NCBI GenBank assembly: GCA_943704525.1 | Contig: CALSCQ010002321.1 | Location: 1 to 27,214, forward strand | Direction of reading: 5' to 3' | Source: Pigoraptor vietnamica | Lineage: Eukaryota > Opisthokonta > Filasterea | DNA length: 27,214 bases | Made by a program: the position numbers and the translations under genes | Notes under the pieces: generated by a model | What the model was told of the DNA's origin: nothing | What the model saw: the letters and a program-made list of their open reading frames with translations, nothing else | The model's database searches: none | In this document: piece by piece, positions 2,445 through 26,806 of the stretch | Position numbering within the stretch: the stretch's first letter is position 1 | How the letters are laid out: each line of letters opens with the position of its first letter

Positions 2445-2944
2445 ATGGAGACGGAGCCTGCTGACCGCCGTGCCACGCTGCTGGCCCTGGGGGAGCTGTC
2501 GTCCAGCACAGCGCCTGACGTGCTTGCGAACGCGCTCAACACGTGAGTGTCGGCGGACTTGCGTGTCCATCTGCTTCGTTAAAACGTGATTTTGGTGACT
2601 TGCCGTTCACACTTTTGTCTGCTTAATCTCTCATTCCGTACTTGCAATTAGTATATCGGACATTCTCGAGCGCGCCGAGGATGCCTATCAGACGGTGGTG
2701 GTCGACCCGCACGCGGACGAGCGCCGGGGACACGCCATCGGGCAACTCTCCGACCTCATCATGGACCGTGACAACGTCGTGGAATCGCTCGTTACGAACT
2801 TTGTGTTCCACAGGGAATCGGCTGTGACGACGGCGGCGATGCGTCTGTTGCTCGTGCTTGCGCCGTTGATGCACCCGGAAATTCTTCTGCAAGACGTGAG
2901 TGAAACTACATTTGCGCTGGGCAGTGTAACCGCGCCGTTACTGA

Positions 2945-2976
<32 letters not shown>

Positions 2977-5900
2977 GCACACAATCGTCATGTATACGCG
3001 TACACATACACGGTGCTCGCACGTACAGGAGCGAATGGTGGATCGCCTGCTCGGCCACTTCAACTCGAACGAACAGCCCATCCGCACGTACGCAACCGGA
3101 GTCCTGGCGGTCGCCCTCGGAGAGCGGGACGTCGCAGACCGTGTCGTTGGCACCGATTTCGTCACGGTCGCCCTCTCGCGTCTCCGCGCATACCTCTACC
3201 GCACCCGCGGGATCGTCATCCCCACGCTTTCCCCTGGGGCGGACGCCGCGCTGACGGACGATCTCGGGATCGTGCTGCCTCCCGGTGACGATGTCGCGTC
3301 GCAGCAACAGGGCGCACAGAGTGGCCCAATTTCCACGGCACCGAACGGTGGGCCTGGGCGGAGTAACCAGCCCGCGGCGCCCGGAGGCGTACTTGCTCCG
3401 GAGGTGTTGGGGGGTGTTGTCGTGGGAACGCTAAGGGACGTGCGGCGGCGATTCGATCGGCGCTACGGCGAGCCTCTTTTTCTTATGCAGTGCATGGGGG
3501 AAGTGGGCGAGTACCAAGAATCGCTGGCGGCCGTGTTCGAGGGCGGCGGCATGGAGATAGCGCTGCACTTTCTGGCCATCGGCCATTCGAACCGCTTCTT
3601 CCTCTTGGACGCGCTCAAGTGCCTCTGCGGGCTGCTCGCGCACCGAAAATTTGCGTCGGAATTTGTCGACCGGGGCGGCGTGGGCCTCCTGCTCGCCATT
3701 CCGCGCCTGCAGTATGTCGCCGGGGGCGTCGCACTTGCTCTGTACTCGCTGTCGTGCGTGCCGACGGTCATGGAGAAAGTGTGCCTGCTGCCCCACCCGA
3801 CGACGCGGAAAATTGTCGCCTTCGCGCTTTGGCTGGTGGAGTGCGGGCACGACTCTGCGCGCATGAACGCCGCCCTCTTCTTTCACGTTGCGTTTTCTTT
3901 TCGCGCGATCCTCGAGCTGTTTGACGAGATGGATGGCCTCCGCCTCCTGATCAACCTCATCTCGACTCAGTTTGCCGGCGCCGAAGAAACGTCCGTTGAT
4001 GCGCGCCCGCTCATGACGAACACGTGCCTCGCACTTCGGCAGTACATGCGCATGCACCTGGAGTCGCTCGCGGACACGGCGAAGCGGCGGCGCGCGCGGC
4101 GGACGAACGGAGACCAGCGGCCGATCCCCCCTACGCCGCTGCCGGCGTACAAGGCGGCATCGTTGGACACGGAGCGCGCCAACGAGAACATGCGAACGGT
4201 GTTAGACTCGTACTTTGTGCTCTTCCCCAATGCAAACAATGTGCGGTCGCCCCGGTGGCGGCCGACGGAGCAGCTGATCAAGCTCGAGGCGATCCCTCTT
4301 CTCCTCCAGCTCGTCGAGGCGTCCGACATGTGGCGGATACCCGACCTCGCGCAGTTTGCGCTCGAGGTGCTTGAGATTGCGGCCGTCGTGCCCGCGACGC
4401 ACCTTCCCATCATTACGGCGGCGATCGAAGTGGACGGACCCGCGGGCACGGTAACAGGGGTGGCACTCATCCTCGCCGCCGCCGAGGGCAAGCCGCACCA
4501 GGAACCAGACGTCCGAAGAGCCGCACTGCAACTTCTCTGTGCGCTCGTGTGCAGGCAGCCGCACGGGTCGCAACAGCAGCAGCCGGGGCCATCGAGCGGA
4601 CCACCGCGCCTGTCGCTCGGTTCGCGTCCGACCACCACACCGGGGACGGCTCCAGGCGCGCCAGGCCCCCCCGCCGCGCGCCGTGGTGCTAACGCAAACG
4701 GCCACGCTGCCGGGGGTGCGCGAAGCAGCGGTGGTCCCATGACCGCGGACGATGTCGCATGGCAGGTGTGGGAGAGTGTGCGGGGAAACAACGGCATACG
4801 CGTTCTGCTTCAGCTCTTGCACACGCGATCGCCCCCCAAGGCGGCCGATGCGATTCGCGCGCTTGCGTGTCGCGCGTTGCTGGGTCTGTCCCGCAACACG
4901 AACATCCTGCAAATTCTGAGCAAGCTCCAGGTGACCGGCGCGTTGTCGGACCTCTCGCGCGAGCCTGTGCTTCCGGACGGCGCGAGTTGGCACGAAATGT
5001 TCCGGTCCAGCGCGATGGAGCTCATCGCGAGCGTGACGGGGCGGACGGGCATTGCCGTCACGAGCGAGGCCGCAGATCACACGCTGCGCAAGATTGAGAA
5101 GGCGGCGATCGTTAGCACGACGAACGTGTCGTACCCGGACCGCGAGCTGCTTCGGCTTATCCACGCGCACCTCCAATCGAAGGGGCTCGCGAGGGCAGCC
5201 GACGCGTTGCAGGCTGAGGCGATGCTGGACGGCGACGCCGCGGCTCCCCTGCCGACGACCACGCCGCTCTCGCAACTGCACGTCCACTCGCACGGGCACC
5301 TGCTTCATCAGATGTCGGCGCCGTCGGGAACCGGGCACGTGCACAGCACGCCTTCGACGCCGTGGCCTACGTCTGGCGCCCGGGGAAGGGAGCACCACGC
5401 CCCGTCCGCAACAGCGCACGTGCACCGGCCGGGCTCTCCGGAGCCGAAAGCGCCCAAGGGAGCATCGAATTTGCAAGTGGTGCCTGTCGCGCGGGAAGCG
5501 GGGGCAGCGACTGCCGTGCCGCAGAGTGTCCTCTCGACGCCGGTCGCGGGATCTGGACATGCGACGCCCGTCAGCGCGACCACACCTCTGCGTTTCCGCA
5601 CCCCGATGTCGCTACGGCCGGTGGACGACGCCGCTTCGACAGTGCGCTCGCAGACGCACGCGTCGCACGCTGCAGGGGCGGGTGAGACGCCGACGGTCGG
5701 CGTATTCGCCTTTGGGCACACGCCGGCTGCCAAGACGACGGCGCAAGTGGGCGACGTGCAGGGGCCCAAGTCGCTGGACCAAATTGTGACGCAGTACTTG
5801 CGCGACCAGCACACGCATTGTCCAAATCCCGTCGCGGTGCTGCCGCCTTTCTCTCTTCTGAAGCCGCACAGGTATGGACGCATGCGCGCTGGTGTGTCGT

Positions 5901-7656
5901 ATTATATTCCTTGTTGTGCTTGTATTGCATTATGTGTCCTCATCCCTCGCCGCCACCGTGCTCAGGTGTCCCGAGCCAATTCGCCCGCTGAACGCGCCCT
6001 TGTCGGTCACTGCACGCGTGCATCGCGCGGAGACGCTCCCGCCATTCGGCGGCACGCATGGCCGGCGTCAGATGCGGCGGTTCATCTACAGCCGCTTCCG
6101 CCCCGTGCGCGTCTATCGCGACGAGTTTGTCGGCTACACGTGCGTGTCGTTTCTCGGAGATGACCGCCTCGTGCTCGGCACGTACACGGGGGAGATCAAG
6201 GTGTACCAGCTCGACACGACGGCCGAGCTCATGTCGGTCACGTGCCACAGCGGGACGGTGTATTCGGCGCGGCCGTCCCACGACGCGACGCTTCTCCTCA
6301 CTTCTTCGAGCTATGGGCCTGTTCGCTCGTGCTTGTGGAGCATGGGTGGGTGGCCGTGTGTGCGTTCGTTGTTTGTGTGCCGCTTGTTGGCCTTCGTCCC
6401 TCTCCTGCGAGACATGCCTCAACTCATCACATCTCCATTGGCGCAGACAACATGGAGGCACCGCGCTATTCGTTTGCGGACGATGCCGTCGTCATGTTCA
6501 GCAACGCGAACGACCGAATTGTCGGGACCGCGGAGGACTCGACGCAGGTCTACTCTGTCGCGACCGGCCAACGCCTGTGCACGCTGAGCGATCCGGCGAA
6601 CGCGAACAACTACCGCAAGAACTGCGCGTTCTTCAACCCGACGGACGACCTCATCCTCAGCGACGGCATTCTGTGGGATCCTCGCATCAGCCGCAAGATA
6701 CACAAGTTTGACAAGTTCAACAACTACTACTCGGGCAAGTTCCACCCGAGCGGCCTCGAGGTCGTCATCAACTCGGAGATATGGGACCTCCGCACGTTCA
6801 AGCTCCTCCGCACCGTCCCTGCGCTCGAGCAGTCGCAGATTGTGTTCAACGACGGGGGCGACGTCATCTACGGCGTCGTGCGGCAGTACGAGGACGAGTA
6901 CCACAACCGCCCCCGGAACCCCTTCAGCTCGACGTTCCGCACTTTCGACGCCACGGACTACTCGTCGATTGCGACGGTGGACCTCGAGCGCCGAATTGTC
7001 GATCTCTGCCCGTCGCCGTGCGACACGCGCATTGCCGTGGTGGAGGTGTGTTTTGGACGCAGCCTGTCTGACGCGTGTGTGTGGCCATCGTCGTGTTACG
7101 CTTGTGCGGGCATAAATGTACGCTCGGACTTCATGCTGATCATCTCTACCCTCTGCAGAATGAAAGCGTCGAGAACGGCCCCGTTCGGTTTGACACGGAC
7201 GTTGTCGCGTGCCGCCTGTACGAAGTGGGACGCAAGCGCCCGTCTGACGATGATAGCGACGCGGACGACGACACGGAAGAGGACATGGAAGACGGCGACG
7301 AAGAAATGGACTCTGTCGTCGAGTCTGAGGACGACAGCGACGTCGATGCCATGGAGGGACTTCTTGCTGCCGCGTCAGACTACAGCTCGGATGCTGGGGA
7401 CGGTGACGCTGCTCCGGCGGTGCCTGCTGGAGACGACGGAGACGCAGAGTGGGAGTCGGACGATGGGGTTGACGCGAATGGCGGGGATGTTGTCGAGGGC
7501 GACGGCGACGGGGCGGTGGAGGCGCTGGAGGGGTTCAGCGACGAGGATGACGACAGCGATTTGGTGGAAGAGCTGTTCGGCGGCCACTATCGCGGGGCGT
7601 TCATCACGGACTCTGAGGGCTCGGACGACAGCGAGGCGTATATGCCGTTCTTCTGA
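2445..7656 (+). CDS. DCAF1: DCAF1 (VprBP), CUL4-DDB1 substrate receptor
   Basis: DCAF1 is the substrate-recognition subunit of the CUL4-DDB1 ubiquitin ligase and acts mainly in the nucleus. Six exons: 2445-2542, 2652-2895, 3029-5871, 5966-6345, 6447-7045, 7159-7656. They give 1553 aa, against 1507 in human. An N-terminal armadillo-like helical region includes the family signature IRTYATG near residue 128. A Gln/Pro/Ala-rich linker follows near 620-660. A LisH motif lies at about 815-845 (YPDRELLRLIHAHLQSKG). The block around DQIVTQYLRDQHTHCPNPVA precedes a WD40 propeller at about 1062-1400. The propeller has two DDB1-binding WDxR motifs, ILWDPR (about 1262) and EIWDLR (about 1299), plus the diagnostic KIHKFDKFN and CRLYEVGRKR. 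The last exon is a long Asp/Glu-rich tail, as in animals. All introns are GT-AG with consistent phases. The start is the first ATG after the TATA box. Confidence 0.97.
2946..2986 (+). repeat. Poly-C plus (CA)n microsatellite in DCAF1 intron 2
   Basis: A run of 17 C is followed directly by a CA repeat with one interruption. It lies within the 133-bp intron 2896-3028 and may act as part of an extended pyrimidine-rich region upstream of the acceptor at 3028. The homopolymer length is likely to vary or to be mis-sequenced. Confidence 0.9.
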
Positions 7657-7958
7657 GATGGCAGTAAAACTGACTGAGGGTCCTCGGTAACAGAATCGGC
7701 AGAATCACCAATTTTGTGATGACGTACGTGTGACGGTTGGTCGGTTGTCAAGAATTTTGGCGACGCCAACCCAACACAGTCTGTCATTAGGGCAGAGTCG
7801 ATGACGGCGCTCGCTTGTCTTTCCGTTATTGGAGGTGGCATGCGACTCGTGGTACGTTGGGAAGAGAGACCGCGCTTGCTCCCCAGCGTAAAATGCCTTG
7901 ACCCCCTCGGTGACCGTGAGGGTCGTGCCGCACATCTGCGGCCATTCGATTCGAGTGG
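7657..7958 (+). other. DCAF1 3' flank / next gene's 5' flank
   Basis: About 300 bp separate the DCAF1 stop from the next ATG, in the same orientation. I see no gene, no clear AATAAA and no TATA box. The 3' end signals of DCAF1 and the promoter of the downstream gene must be packed here. Confidence 0.5.
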
Positions 7959-14898: not shown

Positions 14899-17800
14899 AT
14901 GAGCGAATCGGCGCCTAGCGAGGAGAGTGCACGAACGGCGCTCGTGATGGGGTGGTCGCGCTGGACCATCCTCACGCTCGCTGTCGGCGTTGCGTGCCTT
15001 GCCGTCATACCCCCCGCGGTGTACCACGAAGCGCGGAGGAACGAGCACGCCCTTTTGGAGTATCGGTTCTCCGAGGCCGCGCAGGCGGAGCTTCGGAACG
15101 TCGCGATGCTCGTCAATCGCACCCTGCACACGATCGAAGGGCTGCGAATTCCCGTACACCTTGAGGGCGAGGGCCTCACGCAGGCGAACTTTGACGAGTC
15201 GTGCGCGCTCCTCTCGCGACCGTCGTCGATCGCTCTCCTGATGTGGAACGCGCTTGTTCTCGAGGGCGACCGCGACGCGTACGAGATGCGGATGCGCGCG
15301 ATGCACGCGGACGACCCCTCGTTCGCGTCGTTTGAAATTTTCGAGATTCGCATGCCGAATCTTACGCACATGGATCCCTCCGTTCGCCTGAATACGTCGC
15401 GCGCCGACAAGCGCGATATGTACCTTCCCGTAACGTACATGTACGCTGCGTCGGGCATCCACTTCGGCTCCCGACGCATTGGCGTTGATCTCCTCTCGTC
15501 GCCTCCGCACAAACGGGCGGGTAATCTCACGGCGGCGCTGTTTGAGGGCGAGCCGGCCATTTTCACCAACATGAACTTCGCCGGCGACCGTCTCGGCAAG
15601 GGCACCTTCTTCTTCGTGCCGGCGTACCGGGGTGCGAAGGTTCCCGCGACGGTCGAGGAGCGTAAGCGCATGGCTGTCGGGTTCGTGTCGGCGGTGGCTG
15701 GCATGACGGATATGATTGACGAGGCGCGGGCACACAAGAGATCGCTTCACATGTACGTGTTCGAGGCGAACGGTCGCGGACTGCTGTATGCGGACGAAGG
15801 CATGCCACTCGTGGACGCTGCGGACGACATTCCCGCAGCCCACGGCGTGCGGCTGAGTCTCACGCTTGCGATTGCTAACAAGAAGCTCTCGTTTTTGGCC
15901 GTGCCGTCGGACGAGCTCGCACGGCTGTCGACCACGTCGGGGCCGGTGATCTACGCCGCGGCTGCGTCGCTGGCAATCGCCGTGTTGATCGTCGCGGCGC
16001 TCACGGCAGGCGACAGGATAACGCGATCGCAGCGGTCGATGGAGGAGAGCGAGGAGCGGAGGCAGATTGTCAGCAAGATGATTGGTGTGTTCGGTCGGCG
16101 CGTGCGGCGTGTGTTTGTGCGTCTGTGTGTGTGTGTGTCTGTGTGTTAGTAGTTTTAATGCAAGGTGCACGTGCTCTGCACGCAATCTGTGCTCACATTC
16201 TACCGCTCTCGCCGTTCTTTCGATTTGCTCTTCCAGGCTACGTCAATCACGAGGTATGCTGCCGTGTCGTCGCGTTGAGTGCCAATCTCTCGCTTGTACG
16301 CTTCGTTCCCCCTTTGTCGAGCCCATTCTCATCTAGTCGGCCGGGTTGCACAGGTCCGCAATCCCCTCAACGGCATGCTGGGCTGCCTCGACGTCATGTC
16401 CAGCGCTGTGACAAGGCTGCAGAAGACGACAAAGGCGGAGCGGTCGATCGTCAAGGAACTGGGGAAGGCAATCGAAGACGCGCGCGCACAGGGGGAGCTT
16501 ATGACGTGGGTACTCTTCACTGTGCGCGCGTGTCTGTCACTACTTTGCTGACACATGTCGTCGTCGTGCTGGAAAGCTCACATACGTGGTCCGTGCTGCA
16601 GCCGCGTGGTCGACGACATGCTGGACATTCGCAGTCTGGACGAGGGTCGCATGCACATCGTGCTTGCGCCGGCGTCCGTGTCCTCCATCCTCTCGAAATT
16701 GGTGACGGCGGTCCGTCTGCGACTGGCTGAGAAGCCAGCCCTCTCGCTCCGCGTGGACGATCTCGAGGGCTCTGCGGCGATCATGTGTGACGCAGACCGT
16801 GTCCTGCAGGTGCTCCTCAACCTTGTCGTGAACAGCATCAAGTACTCGGAGGCCGGCGAAGTCCACGTGCGCACGGAGGTCGTCGCGGGACAGCAGGACA
16901 AGGCGCAGTTCTTGCGATTTTCCGTCACTGACTCCGGCAAGGGTGAGCCAGCCTTCTCCTTCCGCATGCACTGCGCACTTGCAAGATATTGCTGTGTGCC
17001 TGTGTGGCATCCCACTAGCATGGCTTCTCATTCCATGTTTTGCACGTTTCTCGCTCTCTTCGGCGCAGGCATCGAGCACGACAAGAGGCACCTCATCTTC
17101 CAGCCGTGGCGGCAGCTCAACGGGATGTCGCGCGGCCAGGGCGTCGGCCTCGGCCTCTACCTCTGCTCGATGCTGGCCAAGCGCATGGGCGGGTCAATGG
17201 GCTTTTCGAGTGCCGTGGGCGTCGGCAGCACGTTTTGGATCGACATTCCCCACATTGTTAGCGAGATGCCGGTGGAGGACGTGTCTATTCGTACGCCGGA
17301 GCTCTCAAGCCGCTCTACTACGCCGGAATCTCGTCCCCACAGCGATAGTGGCGACGACGGCGATGTCCGGGACGCGAACGACAGCTCGGAGATATCTTCG
17401 ACGCGGTCCGATCACACGATACCCGCATTGGTTGGAGCGGTACGTGTGTGTGTAACTGCTTGCCTTCACTTGCGCACGTTGGTGTGGAACTGTCACTTAC
17501 CGTCGCCTACCTCCTCTTTTTTATGAGCGCAGTCGTCGACACCGCCCCTCTCCCGCCGCCACCTCGTGTGCGACGACGACAAGATCAACCGCACCGTTTT
17601 GAAGCATCACATTAGACGTGTGGACCCTCACTCTACGATCGACGAGGCGTGCGACGGGCCGGCGGCGTGCGAATTGGCGGCTGCGAACGACTACGACTTT
17701 GTTTGGTTGGACATGCGCATGCCGAACATGAGTGGTGTCGGTGAGTTTGCTGCTGCGCTATCAGCAATTCGATGAAGTTTGTGCCCCCTCTGCGACCCGT

Positions 17801-18040
17801 GCTCTTATAGTTAACAACTCGGTTTCGTTTTTTCGCCGCCTAATGTTTTCGCGCGCAGACGTGGCCAAGCAAATTCAAGCCGACGGCTCAAGAAACCGCG
17901 GGGTGTTAATTGTCGGCATCACTGGCGACGTTACCGCCGACGACCTCAGGGACTATCGTGACGCCGGCATGCGACATTTGCTGAGCAAGCCCGTCAAGGC
18001 CGAGACGATCGCCCAGATGATCGAGCAACCCCTCCGGTAG
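14899..18040 (+). CDS. CHASE-domain hybrid histidine kinase, copy 1
   Basis: This is a membrane sensor kinase. An outside ligand binds CHASE, the kinase autophosphorylates a His, and the phosphate moves to a receiver Asp and then to a phosphotransfer protein. Seven exons: 14899-16084, 16237-16253, 16354-16505, 16602-16942, 17069-17439, 17533-17740, 17859-18040 (818 aa). TM1 is about 22-42. The CHASE domain is about 45-345 (MWNALVLEGDRDAYE, YLPVTYMYA, RIGVDLLSS) with several N-glycosylation sequons. TM2 is about 349-371. The H-box is GYVNHEVRNPLNG, with His400 on a 17-nt microexon. Then come the N-box (N525, N529), G1 (DSGKG, 562-566), F-box (FQPW, 576-579) and G2 (GQGVGLGLYL, from 588). The receiver has CDDDKINR (702-709), phospho-acceptor D749 (WLDMRMPNMSG), GITGD and K802. 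All catalytic residues are present. It has one receiver, where plant cytokinin receptors have two receiver-like regions. The ligand cannot be read from the sequence. Confidence 0.96.
16109..16146 (+). repeat. GT-rich microsatellite in intron 1 of kinase copy 1
   Basis: Degenerate GT/CTGTGT repeats lie about 25 bp inside the intron 16085-16236, just upstream of the microexon's intron half. They may be a binding region for GU-rich splicing factors. Confidence 0.8.
16237..16253 (+). other. 17-nt microexon encoding the phospho-acceptor His (copy 1)
   Basis: A 17-base exon (GCTACGTCAATCACGAG) is flanked by TTCCAG and GTATGC. It adds two bases to a split Gly codon and then encodes Tyr-Val-Asn-His-Glu, the left half of the H-box. 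The right half, VRNPLNG, starts exon 3 at 16354. Without this exon the kinase has no acceptor histidine and the frame shifts. Confidence 0.92.
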
Positions 18041-18135
18041 CCGACTCTAAAACATTCACATGTGCGCTTTTGCTTGTCCCTCTTTTTCCTTGCGTGTCGC
18101 ATGTCACATTTACATAATGTATAAATATTTTGGGC

Positions 18136-18155
18136 GGAGTGAGCCGGCTCACTCC
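18136..18155. repeat. 20-bp perfect palindrome
   Basis: The half-site GGAGTGAGCC is followed at once by its exact reverse complement, with no spacer. It sits 96 bp after the stop of kinase copy 1, next to an AT-rich TATAAATATTTT. It could be a dimeric factor site, or part of the 3' UTR that folds into a hairpin. Confidence 0.85.
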
Positions 18156-18392
18156 TGCCGCACAGCGTTTTGGTCAGCGACTGTGGATTGTTCGCCAGTT
18201 ACAGTTTGCATTGACGACGTGAGTGTAACAAGCGCGTTTCTACCGGCAGCGTAACATCCACCCTGTGTTGTAAAGGGAAGCGTCACGTGTGGGTTAGGCG
18301 ACAATAGAAATCAAATGTCCGGCGCAGTGTACAAATCGGGGAACACCCAGAGATGGTGACTGTAATTCCAGGTAACAAGATCAGTAAAAATT

Positions 18393-18478
18393 AATAAATA
18401 TTTATGCGCACCAAATAAAGGATTTCTTCAACCTTTGTTTGGCTCATTTTGTATGCAATTTACTGTCCCACTAATAAA
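18393..18478 (+). terminator. Cluster of three AATAAA poly(A) signals
   Basis: AATAAA occurs at 18393-18398, 18414-18419 and 18473-18478, in an AT-rich patch about 350-440 bp downstream of the copy 1 stop. They are candidate polyadenylation signals for that gene. The AT-rich composition alone makes chance matches more likely. Confidence 0.4.
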
Positions 18479-18873
18479 ATTTATATTTTTACATTTGCAA
18501 GTGGGCGATTCTCCCATTCACCTTCCGTTCTCCCCATTGCGTCTGTGATGTCGGCGCAACGCAATTCCCGACACAGCTCGCCACACGCTCGCACCACGCT
18601 CGCCTGACCTCTCACCATTCACTTTGCGTGTCGGCCTCTCTTCTCTCCGTTCCCGGCAACCCGTCCTGACATTCCCCCGTTGACGCTTCGTCGTCACAAG
18701 CGCTTCGTCGCAATCAAATCGTTGCACACAGTGGTTTTAAAAAACGCCGGAAAATCGAAACCGCGGGGAATTTCGCGTTTGCCGTTTCGTCGAGGAGATT
18801 GCCACCCGAACGTTGCCGTCAGCTCCCGTGAGGATTACGAGTGAATGTGAGCGTGAATTTTCCGTGGGTCGCT

Positions 18874-21800
18874 ATGAGCTCCGCCGAAGGCTCATCCCGC
18901 TGGCGTCGGCGGACCAAAGCCGCTGTGACGAGCACGGAAGGCGCACACGAGAACATTGCGCTGGGGAACTTGCGTCCCGGTTCGCCCGAATCGGACGTTG
19001 ACGATGGCAAACGGCGCGTGGGGTGGTGGCGGACACAGTGGGGCCACCTTCGGCCGTACGTTCGCTGGTGGAGCGTGCTGATTGTCCTCATCCTACTCGG
19101 GTGCCTCGCGTTGTTGCCGTACGTCGTCTACCGCGAGGCCACACACAAAGAACAGGATGTGCTCGAGAACAGGTTTCTCGAGACGGCGATTGCCGAGCAG
19201 CGGAATATCGGCTTCATGATTGATCGCACGCTGCGGACGGCGGTGAACCTGCGCATCCCGCTTTACCTCGAAGGACGGGACGGCCTCTCGTACAAAGATT
19301 TTATGGCGTCGTGCGACCTCTTGTCGCGCCCCGAGTCGCTCGCCGTGTTGATTTGGAACGCTTTTGTCCGCGGCGAGGAGAGGGACGCGTTTGAGGCAAA
19401 CATACGTCGCCTCAACAACGGCACCGCCGCCTACGCCCATTTTGAGATTCTCGAGCTCGTCAAGAACGGCCTGTCGAGCCTCAACCCCGCGCTTGTTGCG
19501 AACACGACGCGCGCGGCGAATAGGACAGCGTACATCCCGCTTATGTACATGTGGACCGCGCCTTCCATCCGCGCCAACAGCCGCATCGGGATAGATCTTA
19601 TGACCTCGCAGCTGCACGGGAACGTGTCCGGGCCGATTCTCAGCGGCGACGCCTACATTCTGACGACCGTCGTGTATCCCCTCGACCGCCTGAAGAAGAG
19701 CATCTACATTTTCACGCCGACGTACGAGGGTGTGGGTGTGCCGGACACGCCCACGGAGCGCTGGAACAAGGCGACGGGGCTCCTCGCGACGATCGCGGGC
19801 ATGTCGGCCATGGTGGAGGAGGCGCGCGCGTACGTAAACTCGCTCCACGTGTACATATTCGAAGAGGACGGCAAGGGGCTCATGTACGCCGAGAATGGCC
19901 TGCCACTTTTCAGCAGTTCCGCCGCCGTGCCGCGCTCGCACGGACTGCGCATAGAGCTGCCCATGCCAATGGCGAACCGCGTGCTGACGTTCGTTGCGGT
20001 CCCGACGGACGAGCTTGTGGACATGTCGACGACGATCGGGCCGCCGGTGTTTGCGGCCGTGACGGCGATCGCCGTGGCGATTGTGCTCGTGATCGCCGTC
20101 TTTGCGATTCGCAAGATTATCCGGACGCAGCGGAAGGTGTCCTTGTCGGAGGAGCGGCGACACCTCGTCAACCAGATGATCGGTACGTGTGCGTGCGTGC
20201 GCGTGCGCGTGCATTTAGTGGCGTGTTGTACGCTGTGAGTGTGGTGAAGGTGCCCCGCATCTGATGTGCGCTCCTTTCCTCCGCCTCAACAGGTTACGTC
20301 AACCACGAGGTAAGCGAGAGAATGCAGCCCCTGCGCCCGAACGATGTTGTGTGGGTTGTCGCTGCTCTGTACTTCCGCTGACGCAACAACATGGCTCCCT
20401 CCCTTCAGATTCGCAATCCCTTGAACGGGATAACGGGCCTCGTCGAACACGCGATCGAGTCGGCCGACAAGCTGCTTCGCGACGTACCCAGCGAGAAGGA
20501 AGCGCTCGCCGCGTCCCTGCGTTCGGACCTCAAGGACACGTCCAACATGTGCGACCTCATGCGGTGCGTCGTTTTCACTTGCTGTGTTCGCTGCTCTTTC
20601 TGTTTGCTGAGATTCAGCACGATCGCATCGTTGTGGGTGGCTGACGCGCGGGCTCGTGTTTTGCTGTGCTTCGTGCGCGCAGGCACATTATCGACGACGT
20701 CCTTGACATCCGGTGCCTCGACGAAGGCCGCCTCCGCATCATCCAAGCGCCCGCGTGCGTGCAACGCATCCTTTCGGAAGTTGCGGCCATTGTTCAGCCC
20801 AAGCTGAGCGAGAAGGCGGGCATGTCCCTCTCCGTCGCCGAGTTTGAGGGCGAGCCAATCGTCATTTGCGATGCGGTGCGGTGCAAGCAGGTCTTGGTCA
20901 ACTTTATAGTCAACAGCATCAAGTACAGCGACCGCGGCACAATCTTCGTCCGCGCGGAGGTCAGGGGAGACCCTCCGTCCCGCGTCCTCCACTTTTCGGT
21001 GACGGACAGCGGCAAGGGTGCGTGTTGCGTCTGTGCGGGCTAGCGTCCCATTCCCTTTGAGTCTGTGCCGGGCCTGGCCTCTGCTATTGTCGCCTCTCCC
21101 ATGGTATTTGTGTCTCATTCGTGTTCTCATCTGTGCCCTCGCTCCACTCCAGGCATCGAGGACTGCAACAAGGGCCTCGTCTTTCGCCCGTTCATGCAGC
21201 TCAACGGCGCCGTGCGGCACCAGGGAGTCGGCCTCGGGCTGTACCTCTGTTCGCTGCTCGCCAAGCGAATGCTCGGCAACATTGGCTTCGAGAGCAAGGC
21301 GGGCGTTGGGAGCACATTTTGGTTCGAGGTGCCCTACACCGTCCTCGGGGCGACGCCAGCCACCGAGAGCCTCGTTTCGTCGGATTTGATGAGCGGCGAC
21401 ATGCAGTGCGTTGTCGTGGACGCAGGGGACGACCGGAGCGCGAGTGACGCGGGAAGCGCCGCCGGGAGCGCGCACTCCCACGCGAAGGAGATTACGGCGG
21501 GCGCTGCGATGATGCCTTCACTGGCCGCTCGCAGCGATGCACTAGTCGAGGCGAGTTCGGGACCCGCGCCAGAGGTGCGTGTGTGTGTGAGATATTCCTC
21601 TGTGTGGTGTTTGTGTGACGTATCTGTCTCTTTTGTGTGTGTGTTTGTGTAAAGTATCTGTTTAAAAGCGATTCGCTATTATGAGGGACACCTCTTCCCC
21701 ATCTTATTAGCTCGTGGTTCCTCAGACTTCGGTGGAGTTTGCCCGCACCCTTCGTCACCTCGTGTGCGACGATGGACGCATCAATCGCGTCGTGTTGCGC

Positions 21801-22243
21801 CGATACATCGAGGCGGTTGACGCGGGCTGCGTCGTCGACGAGGCCGAGAACGGGCTCGTGGCGTGCGAACTTGCGGCCGCCAACGACTACGACATTATCT
21901 GGATGGACGTTAAGATGCCCGTCATGGACGGAATGGGTGAGTGTGGTGCATGCTATGTGTTTCGGTCTCGGTGTCGTCTTTAGTGTGCGAACGGAAGGTC
22001 GTTGTGTGTTGAGCGTGAGTGGAGGGTAACGAAAAAGTCTGAAATAATCCTCTTTGCGCAGAGGCAACGCAACGCATCCAGGCCGGTCCGCGGAACAATA
22101 CAACGGCGGTGGTTGGTGTTACTGGTGACGTAACGGCCGGGGAAGTCGCAAACTACCGTGACGTCGGAATGTTCAGCGTGCTGAGCAAGCCTGTGTCGCG
22201 CAAGTTGGTTGCAGAAGCGATTGCAAAGGTTCGCGACGGCTGA
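18874..22243 (+). CDS. CHASE-domain hybrid histidine kinase, copy 2
   Basis: This is the tandem paralogue of the kinase just upstream, with the same design. Seven exons: 18874-20182, 20293-20309, 20409-20563, 20683-21017, 21153-21574, 21711-21936, 22062-22243 (881 aa). Exon 6 could instead start at 21726. All intron phases equal those of copy 1, and exons 2 (17 nt) and 7 (182 nt) have equal length. A longer basic cytosolic N-terminus precedes TM1 (about 66-86). The CHASE domain follows (IWNAFVRGEERDAFE, YIPLMYMWTA, RIGIDLMTS), then TM2 (about 390-412). The H-box is GYVNHEIRNPLNG (His441), the N-box NFIVNSIKYS, G1 DSGKG, the F-box FRPF and G2 HQGVGLGLYL. The receiver has CDDGRINR, D812 (WMDVKMPVMDG), GVTGD and LSKP. 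It looks fully active. The Ser/Ala-rich linker before the receiver differs most from copy 1. The ATG at 18874 is used; the frame is open upstream only to non-ATG codons. Confidence 0.96.
20293..20309 (+). other. 17-nt microexon encoding the phospho-acceptor His (copy 2)
   Basis: This is the exact counterpart of the microexon in copy 1: 17 bases (GTTACGTCAACCACGAG) with the same phases and the same Gly-Tyr-Val-Asn-His-Glu coding. Flanks are CAACAG and GTAAGC. Three synonymous changes separate the two microexons. Confidence 0.92.

Positions 22244-23198: not shown

Positions 23199-26806
<3,608 letters not shown>

Follow-up and report, generated by a model that had tools for sequence, protein, structure and literature searches.

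The question raised by this locus is what kind of receptors are encoded by two adjacent genes, A and B, at positions 14899–22243 of contig CALSCQ010002321.1 (Pigoraptor vietnamica assembly GCA_943704525.1), how they came to lie side by side and what they might sense. The contig, analysed over its whole length of 27,214 nucleotides, is referred to below as the window. Taken together, the sequence evidence makes it quite probable that A and B are receptors of the CHASE hybrid histidine kinase kind, that they stem from an old tandem duplication in a family with 14 or more members, that they signal through a histidine phosphotransfer (HPt) relay and that they bind something other than a classical plant cytokinin.

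Receptor class and gene structure

Gene A (14899–18040, 818 aa) and gene B (18874–22243, 881 aa) consist of seven exons each and share one strand. As a sequence-only reading of the window had held, both encode a CHASE domain between two transmembrane (TM) helices followed by HisKA, HATPase and receiver domains, and this order is supported by the gene models, Pfam and, for the sensor, AlphaFold2 (AF2). The CHASE match scores 59.4 bits in A and 25.4 bits in B (cut-off 25), and HisKA, HATPase_c and Response_reg exceed their Pfam cut-offs in both. The TM helices correspond to long helices, hydrophobic by eye, at both ends of the AF2 sensor models; no dedicated TM predictor was used. These models (mean confidence score, pLDDT, 80.7 in each case) match the folds of the sensors of AHK4 and PcrK at 12–15% identity. 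The claim that both copies keep every catalytic residue was also borne out: the phospho-acceptor His of HisKA, the N, G1 and G2 boxes of HATPase and the acidic pair, phospho-Asp, Thr/Ser and Lys of the C-terminal receiver are present in A and in B. A pattern search found NHE, DSGKG, GVGLGL and the receiver DD/D/T/K residues intact; the N-box was read in the alignment, a regular-pattern search for it having matched nothing. A and B look like functional membrane receptors, and the pair is an ordinary, well-preserved case of an already known receptor class.

All 12 introns are of the GT-AG type, with phases 1, 0, 2, 1, 0, 1 in each gene, and the intron lengths differ between A and B. The models were checked with a home-made spliced aligner and a family profile from which the modelled gene was left out and in which its sister was included. 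The aligner reproduced all 12 introns and, of the 24 splice junctions, 23; the disagreement concerns the acceptor of B intron 5, placed at 21711 by eye and at 21726 by the profile. When the sister alone served as the query, intron 5 shifted in both genes. The other five introns sit at equal positions in the A–B alignment; for intron 5, which lies in an unalignable linker and moves, equality extends only to the phase (in the models chosen) and to the approximate place. Thus, of the six equal positions and phases originally proposed, all phases and five positions stand. Exon 2, a microexon of 17 nt, and exon 7, of 182 nt, do have the same length in both genes, as described.

In gene A, exon 1 (14899–16084) encodes TM1, the CHASE sensor (Pfam match 15178–15765), TM2 and the start of HisKA. 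It is followed by the microexon (16237–16253) with the phospho-acceptor His motif (G)YVNHE, by exon 3 (16354–16505) with the remaining H-box and HisKA, and by exon 4 (16602–16942), which runs from the end of HisKA through the HATPase N-box up to DSGKG. Exon 5 (17069–17439) holds the HATPase G-boxes and the linker, in which its 3′ end is less certain; exon 6 (17533–17740) contributes the linker end, the receiver acidic pair and the phospho-Asp (WLDMRMP), and exon 7 (17859–18040) the receiver Thr and Lys (SKPV) and the stop. A spacer of 833 bp (18041–18873) separates the genes. Exon 1 of gene B (18874–20182) begins with an N-terminal extension and continues with TM1, CHASE (Pfam match 19297–19827), TM2 and the HisKA start; the microexon (20293–20309) again encodes the phospho-acceptor His. 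HisKA occupies exon 3 (20409–20563), its end and HATPase up to DSGKG exon 4 (20683–21017), and the G-boxes together with a long variable linker exon 5 (21153–21574). The receiver is divided between exon 6 (21711–21936, with the alternative acceptor at 21726) and exon 7 (22062–22243), which ends with the Thr, Lys (SKPV) and stop.

A local but old duplication

A and B are sisters in all three trees, with support of 98/95 in the kinase-plus-receiver tree (13 family members and 12 bacterial kinases, C1387 left out), 94/94 in the sensor tree (12 rows, without C72up and C1131) and 93/99 in the full-length tree (11 rows, without C1387, C72up and C1131). In the kinase tree the program warned of long branches for C707 and several bacterial rows; there the A/B pair joins C72/C72up (93/92). 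Adjacent, on the same strand and sisters among their paralogs, A and B have the marks of tandem duplicates, and the local duplication suggested by the sequence-only reading is upheld; a placement of the two copies in distant clades was not found in these three trees. Sensor identity points the same way: 42% between A and B, at most 30% between A and other members and at most 35% between B and others.

The overall A–B identity is 43–45%, and by domain it is 41% in CHASE, 44% in HisKA, 55% in HATPase, 52% in the receiver and 19% in the linker. The expectation that sensor and linker had diverged more than the kinase core therefore holds for the linker; the sensor lies below HATPase and the receiver and is about level with HisKA. 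Trees and domain identities together show that the duplication is local but old and that the sensor has diverged little further than the transmitter. Ligand specialisation of the two copies, which had also been suggested, did not emerge from the comparison (42% identity in the sensor versus 46% in kinase plus receiver); specialisation and heterodimers are both possible. The ratio of nonsynonymous to synonymous divergence (dN/dS) in the A and B sensors gave no inference on selection, the synonymous sites being too diverged to trust.

Could the equal gene structure reflect youth, that is, a recent or homogenised duplication? The equal intron phases and the two equal exon lengths would fit, as would the recent origin of other pairs in the genome (C1260a/b and C72/C72up). 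However, an identity of merely 43–45%, different intron lengths, synonymous divergence (dS) of 0.80 to 2.13 by domain and an A–B path of 1.29 to 1.81 changes per site across the three trees make this explanation highly improbable. The two copies have not evolved evenly: the end branches of A and B measure 1.37/0.43, 0.89/0.41 and 1.3/0.35 in the three trees, so that A, 2.2 to 3.7 times longer, evolves faster than B. Such a rate might suggest that A has lost signalling and modifies B, for example in a heterodimer, but its HisKA, HATPase and receiver motifs are intact and its reading frame is open over all seven exons, and we regard this role as quite unlikely. An old tandem pair of two intact receptors is the reading we prefer.

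Comparison across the family puts the shared gene structure in perspective. Of 13 testable members, 11 have intron 4 and seven have intron 6; of 14, four have intron 1 and three have intron 2. Intron 3 is confined to A and B (2/14), C1131 having an intron two bases away. Since introns 1, 2, 4 and 6 occur in other members, most of the common A/B structure was inherited from older ancestors. The duplication did follow intron gain, as had been proposed, but the equal structure is weaker evidence for it than it first appeared, only intron 3 being specific to the pair. Intron predictions for paralogs in the variable linker are unreliable and were not interpreted. Around the phospho-His (window 16085–16353 and 20183–20408; loci L010, L011, L014–L017 and L019), five intron positions differing among members fall within about eight codons, and these scattered H-box introns may reflect repeated gain or the shifting of one old intron.

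A bacterial origin, sought by direct matches, was considered and rejected: in a kinase-core scan of a genome collection the loci kept were 25–36% identical over the best segment. The scan confirmed 123 loci, of which 80 were kept; 22 of the 80 were extracted and compared by kinase core, and 12 served as the outgroup. The H-box was found by pattern in 20 of the 22 and was missed in two; all 20 read [ST]HE[ILM]R[TS]P and none carries the family's NHE[ILV]RNPL. Viral contigs scanned with the sensor gave 22 matching stretches, of which none is a relative.

Ligand and relay

We infer the membrane topology, ligand class and phosphoryl flow of A and B as follows. The CHASE pocket would bind a small extracellular (or lumenal) molecule, and the two helices would transmit the resulting change to HisKA. 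The His encoded by the microexon would then be phosphorylated and hand its phosphoryl group on to the Asp of the receiver in the same protein, from which it would travel to the single HPt protein found and on to response regulators. A search for response regulators and phosphotransfer proteins had been suggested as a check. An exon-by-exon HPt search of the assembly gave one match, by eye a two-exon gene on contig C15 with the motif AREAHALKGSAAG, and receivers gave 40 matches (exons counted separately), many of them inside hybrid kinases. Among ten receiver-bearing frames scanned with Pfam, four also contain HATPase_c, one a protein kinase domain, one a T-box and one a sub-threshold Forkhead; three have no other domain. 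The simplest wiring would lead from many receptors through one HPt to several regulators.

AHK4, a plant receptor of the AHK2/3/4 (CRE1) group, shares fold and domain order with A and B. According to PMC1863423, from which the numbering is taken, AHK4 F304 and T317 (and T301) are needed for cytokinin binding. Prediction of the sensor folds, another suggested check, gave a CHASE fold; of the pocket residues, F304 and T317 are replaced in both A and B, T317 by Phe (alignment extended by eye). The T301 place is ambiguous by one position, a Thr adjoining it in both proteins, and neither A nor B appears to have the plant-type pocket. AHK4 D262, which we take to contact the ligand, was not used as evidence. 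The pair further differs from the plant receptors in its 17-nt microexon at the phospho-His and in belonging to a set of at least 14 members. Xanthomonas PcrK, a bacterial protein compared by its sensor alone, provides the best or near-best CHASE fold match and the best profile match.

Would A and B then be ordinary cytokinin receptors as in plants, with isopentenyladenine or a discadenine-like molecule as the ligand? Their domain order and fold match those of AHK4, their fold matches that of PcrK, a Thr adjoins the T301 place, and the assembly contains genes of the IPPT family, whose enzymes are a possible source of isopentenyladenine. Against this stand the loss of F304 and T317 and an exon-by-exon search of the draft assembly for LOG, which gave no match. 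On balance we think such a role unlikely; plant-type recognition in particular appears unlikely from the pocket residues, and a classical plant cytokinin is an improbable ligand. Other CHASE systems offer parallels by description. According to PMC5285503, early-diverging fungi, likewise opisthokonts, have hybrid kinases whose N-terminal CHASE is flanked by a pair of TM helices, as in A and B, and an expansion of CHASE kinases is proposed for some flagellated lineages; almost all fungal members have T301 or Ser where A and B are ambiguous. The protist CHASE kinase DhkA of Dictyostelium is reported (PMC7700396, PMC1863423) to have as its ligand the peptide SDF-2, which is not a cytokinin. Animals are described in PMC7700396 as lacking typical histidine kinases; in a unicellular organism closely related to animals, if this is one, a set of 14 or more CHASE receptors would reveal which receptors have been lost and what signals they detect outside plants. 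Gene content points to such a relative: a T-box search gave 11 exon matches on 6 contigs, and integrin beta gave 6 matches on 4 contigs, 5 of them above the cut-off. Six Zn_clus matches, all above the cut-off, do not decide between this and a fungal or other opisthokont origin.

Several observations weigh against the account of A and B as old tandem CHASE receptors with a non-cytokinin ligand. Taken alone, the CHASE match of B barely clears the Pfam cut-off. Support for A plus B reaches the tree program's star level (95/80) in only one of the three trees, and the sensor tree flags the letter composition of gene A as odd. In kinase plus receiver, B has a higher raw identity to C360 (50%) and C1131 (49%) than to A (46%), which according to the trees is because A's branch is long. 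The HPt and LOG searches were exon-wise in a draft assembly, where a divergent or split gene could escape, and the pocket residues rest on a distant alignment at 12–15% identity. PcrK binds isopentenyladenine though its pocket differs, as stated in PMC7072313.

The wider family, its mosaic copies and other genes

Beyond the A/B pair, the larger family with its mosaic copies is the more interesting finding. In the assembly (32.5 Mb, 1395 contigs, the window being one whole contig), the CHASE search gave 12 matches on 10 contigs. Besides A and B we modelled ten genes, an upstream copy on contig C72 (C72up) and one gene on C1131; in these latter two a contig end removes part or all of the sensor. 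The genome thus holds at least 14 members, including three tandem pairs (A/B, C1260a/b and C72/C72up). C1387 is cut off at a contig end. C707 is divergent, and both its NHG motif and the acceptor (aag) adjoining its H-box are doubtful.

The tandem copies C1260a and C1260b (L009) and the gene C360 on another contig (L012) differ by 17–26% of nucleotides in CHASE and by 2–10% in the TM segments, HisKA, HATPase and receiver; their linker (28–50% different) was left out of the mosaic tests. At four-fold sites, differences number 39/97 in CHASE and 36/259 elsewhere for C1260a/b, 38/90 and 34/263 for C1260b/C360, and 32/115 and 32/262 for C1260a/C360, where they fall mainly in the first half of CHASE. 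We applied a two-rate segment test to these sites, with 200 permutations. None of the 200 reached the observed value for the three pairs of this trio, which are not independent, or for C72/C72up, whereas 36, 27 and 93 of 200 did so for three older control pairs. In C72/C72up (L017, L019), where little of the sensor is left in the upper copy, the segment that stands out is a stretch of kinase without change (0/103 sites differing) and not a divergent CHASE. Across the 99 HisKA codons compared, the two copies are identical in nucleotides, and their linkers differ by 32%. Within the trio, dN/dS in CHASE is 0.25–0.29 for all three pairs, and therefore positive selection is not indicated; the raised synonymous divergence points to conversion. 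The mosaic copies are best explained by gene conversion between loci in patches, or by sensor segments having been exchanged. A and B are too diverged for this test.

A broader idea, plausible though short of probable, is a repertoire with a constant transmitter and a variable sensor. Interlocus gene conversion would keep the TM, kinase and receiver parts alike, even across contigs, to serve one HPt, and the ligand-binding CHASE part would diverge or be swapped as a cassette, A and B being the oldest surviving tandem products. If this is true, the family would be a protist set of interchangeable small-molecule sensors, and the recent mosaic copies make diversification through sensor change on a fixed transmitter testable.

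Several other genes were noticed. On contig C791 (L126:997–2571), an open frame of 525 aa combines a Brachyury-like T-box (PF00907, E 1.7e-58; structure match 1xbr, E 1.2e-55) with a domain resembling a receiver (PF00072, E 1.2e-9) and, after it, a tail of coiled-coil character. By our reading the phospho-Asp is replaced by Glu (VLTEI), and the protein is possibly a T-box pseudo-response regulator; among the papers listed in literature searches, a thin test, no T-box–receiver fusion appears. The frame with the sub-threshold Forkhead (20.4 bits, cut-off 27) lies on C1035 (L122:410–2194), and C1317 (L123:3–1922) combines a receiver and a protein kinase domain within a single open frame. In the window, a large gene at 2599–7690 with an acidic tail presumably resembles DCAF1/VprBP, Pfam giving no match for the two frames scanned, and an ATG16-like gene at 23697–26806 has an ATG16 domain (E 1.5e-31) ahead of frames that carry WD40 repeats.
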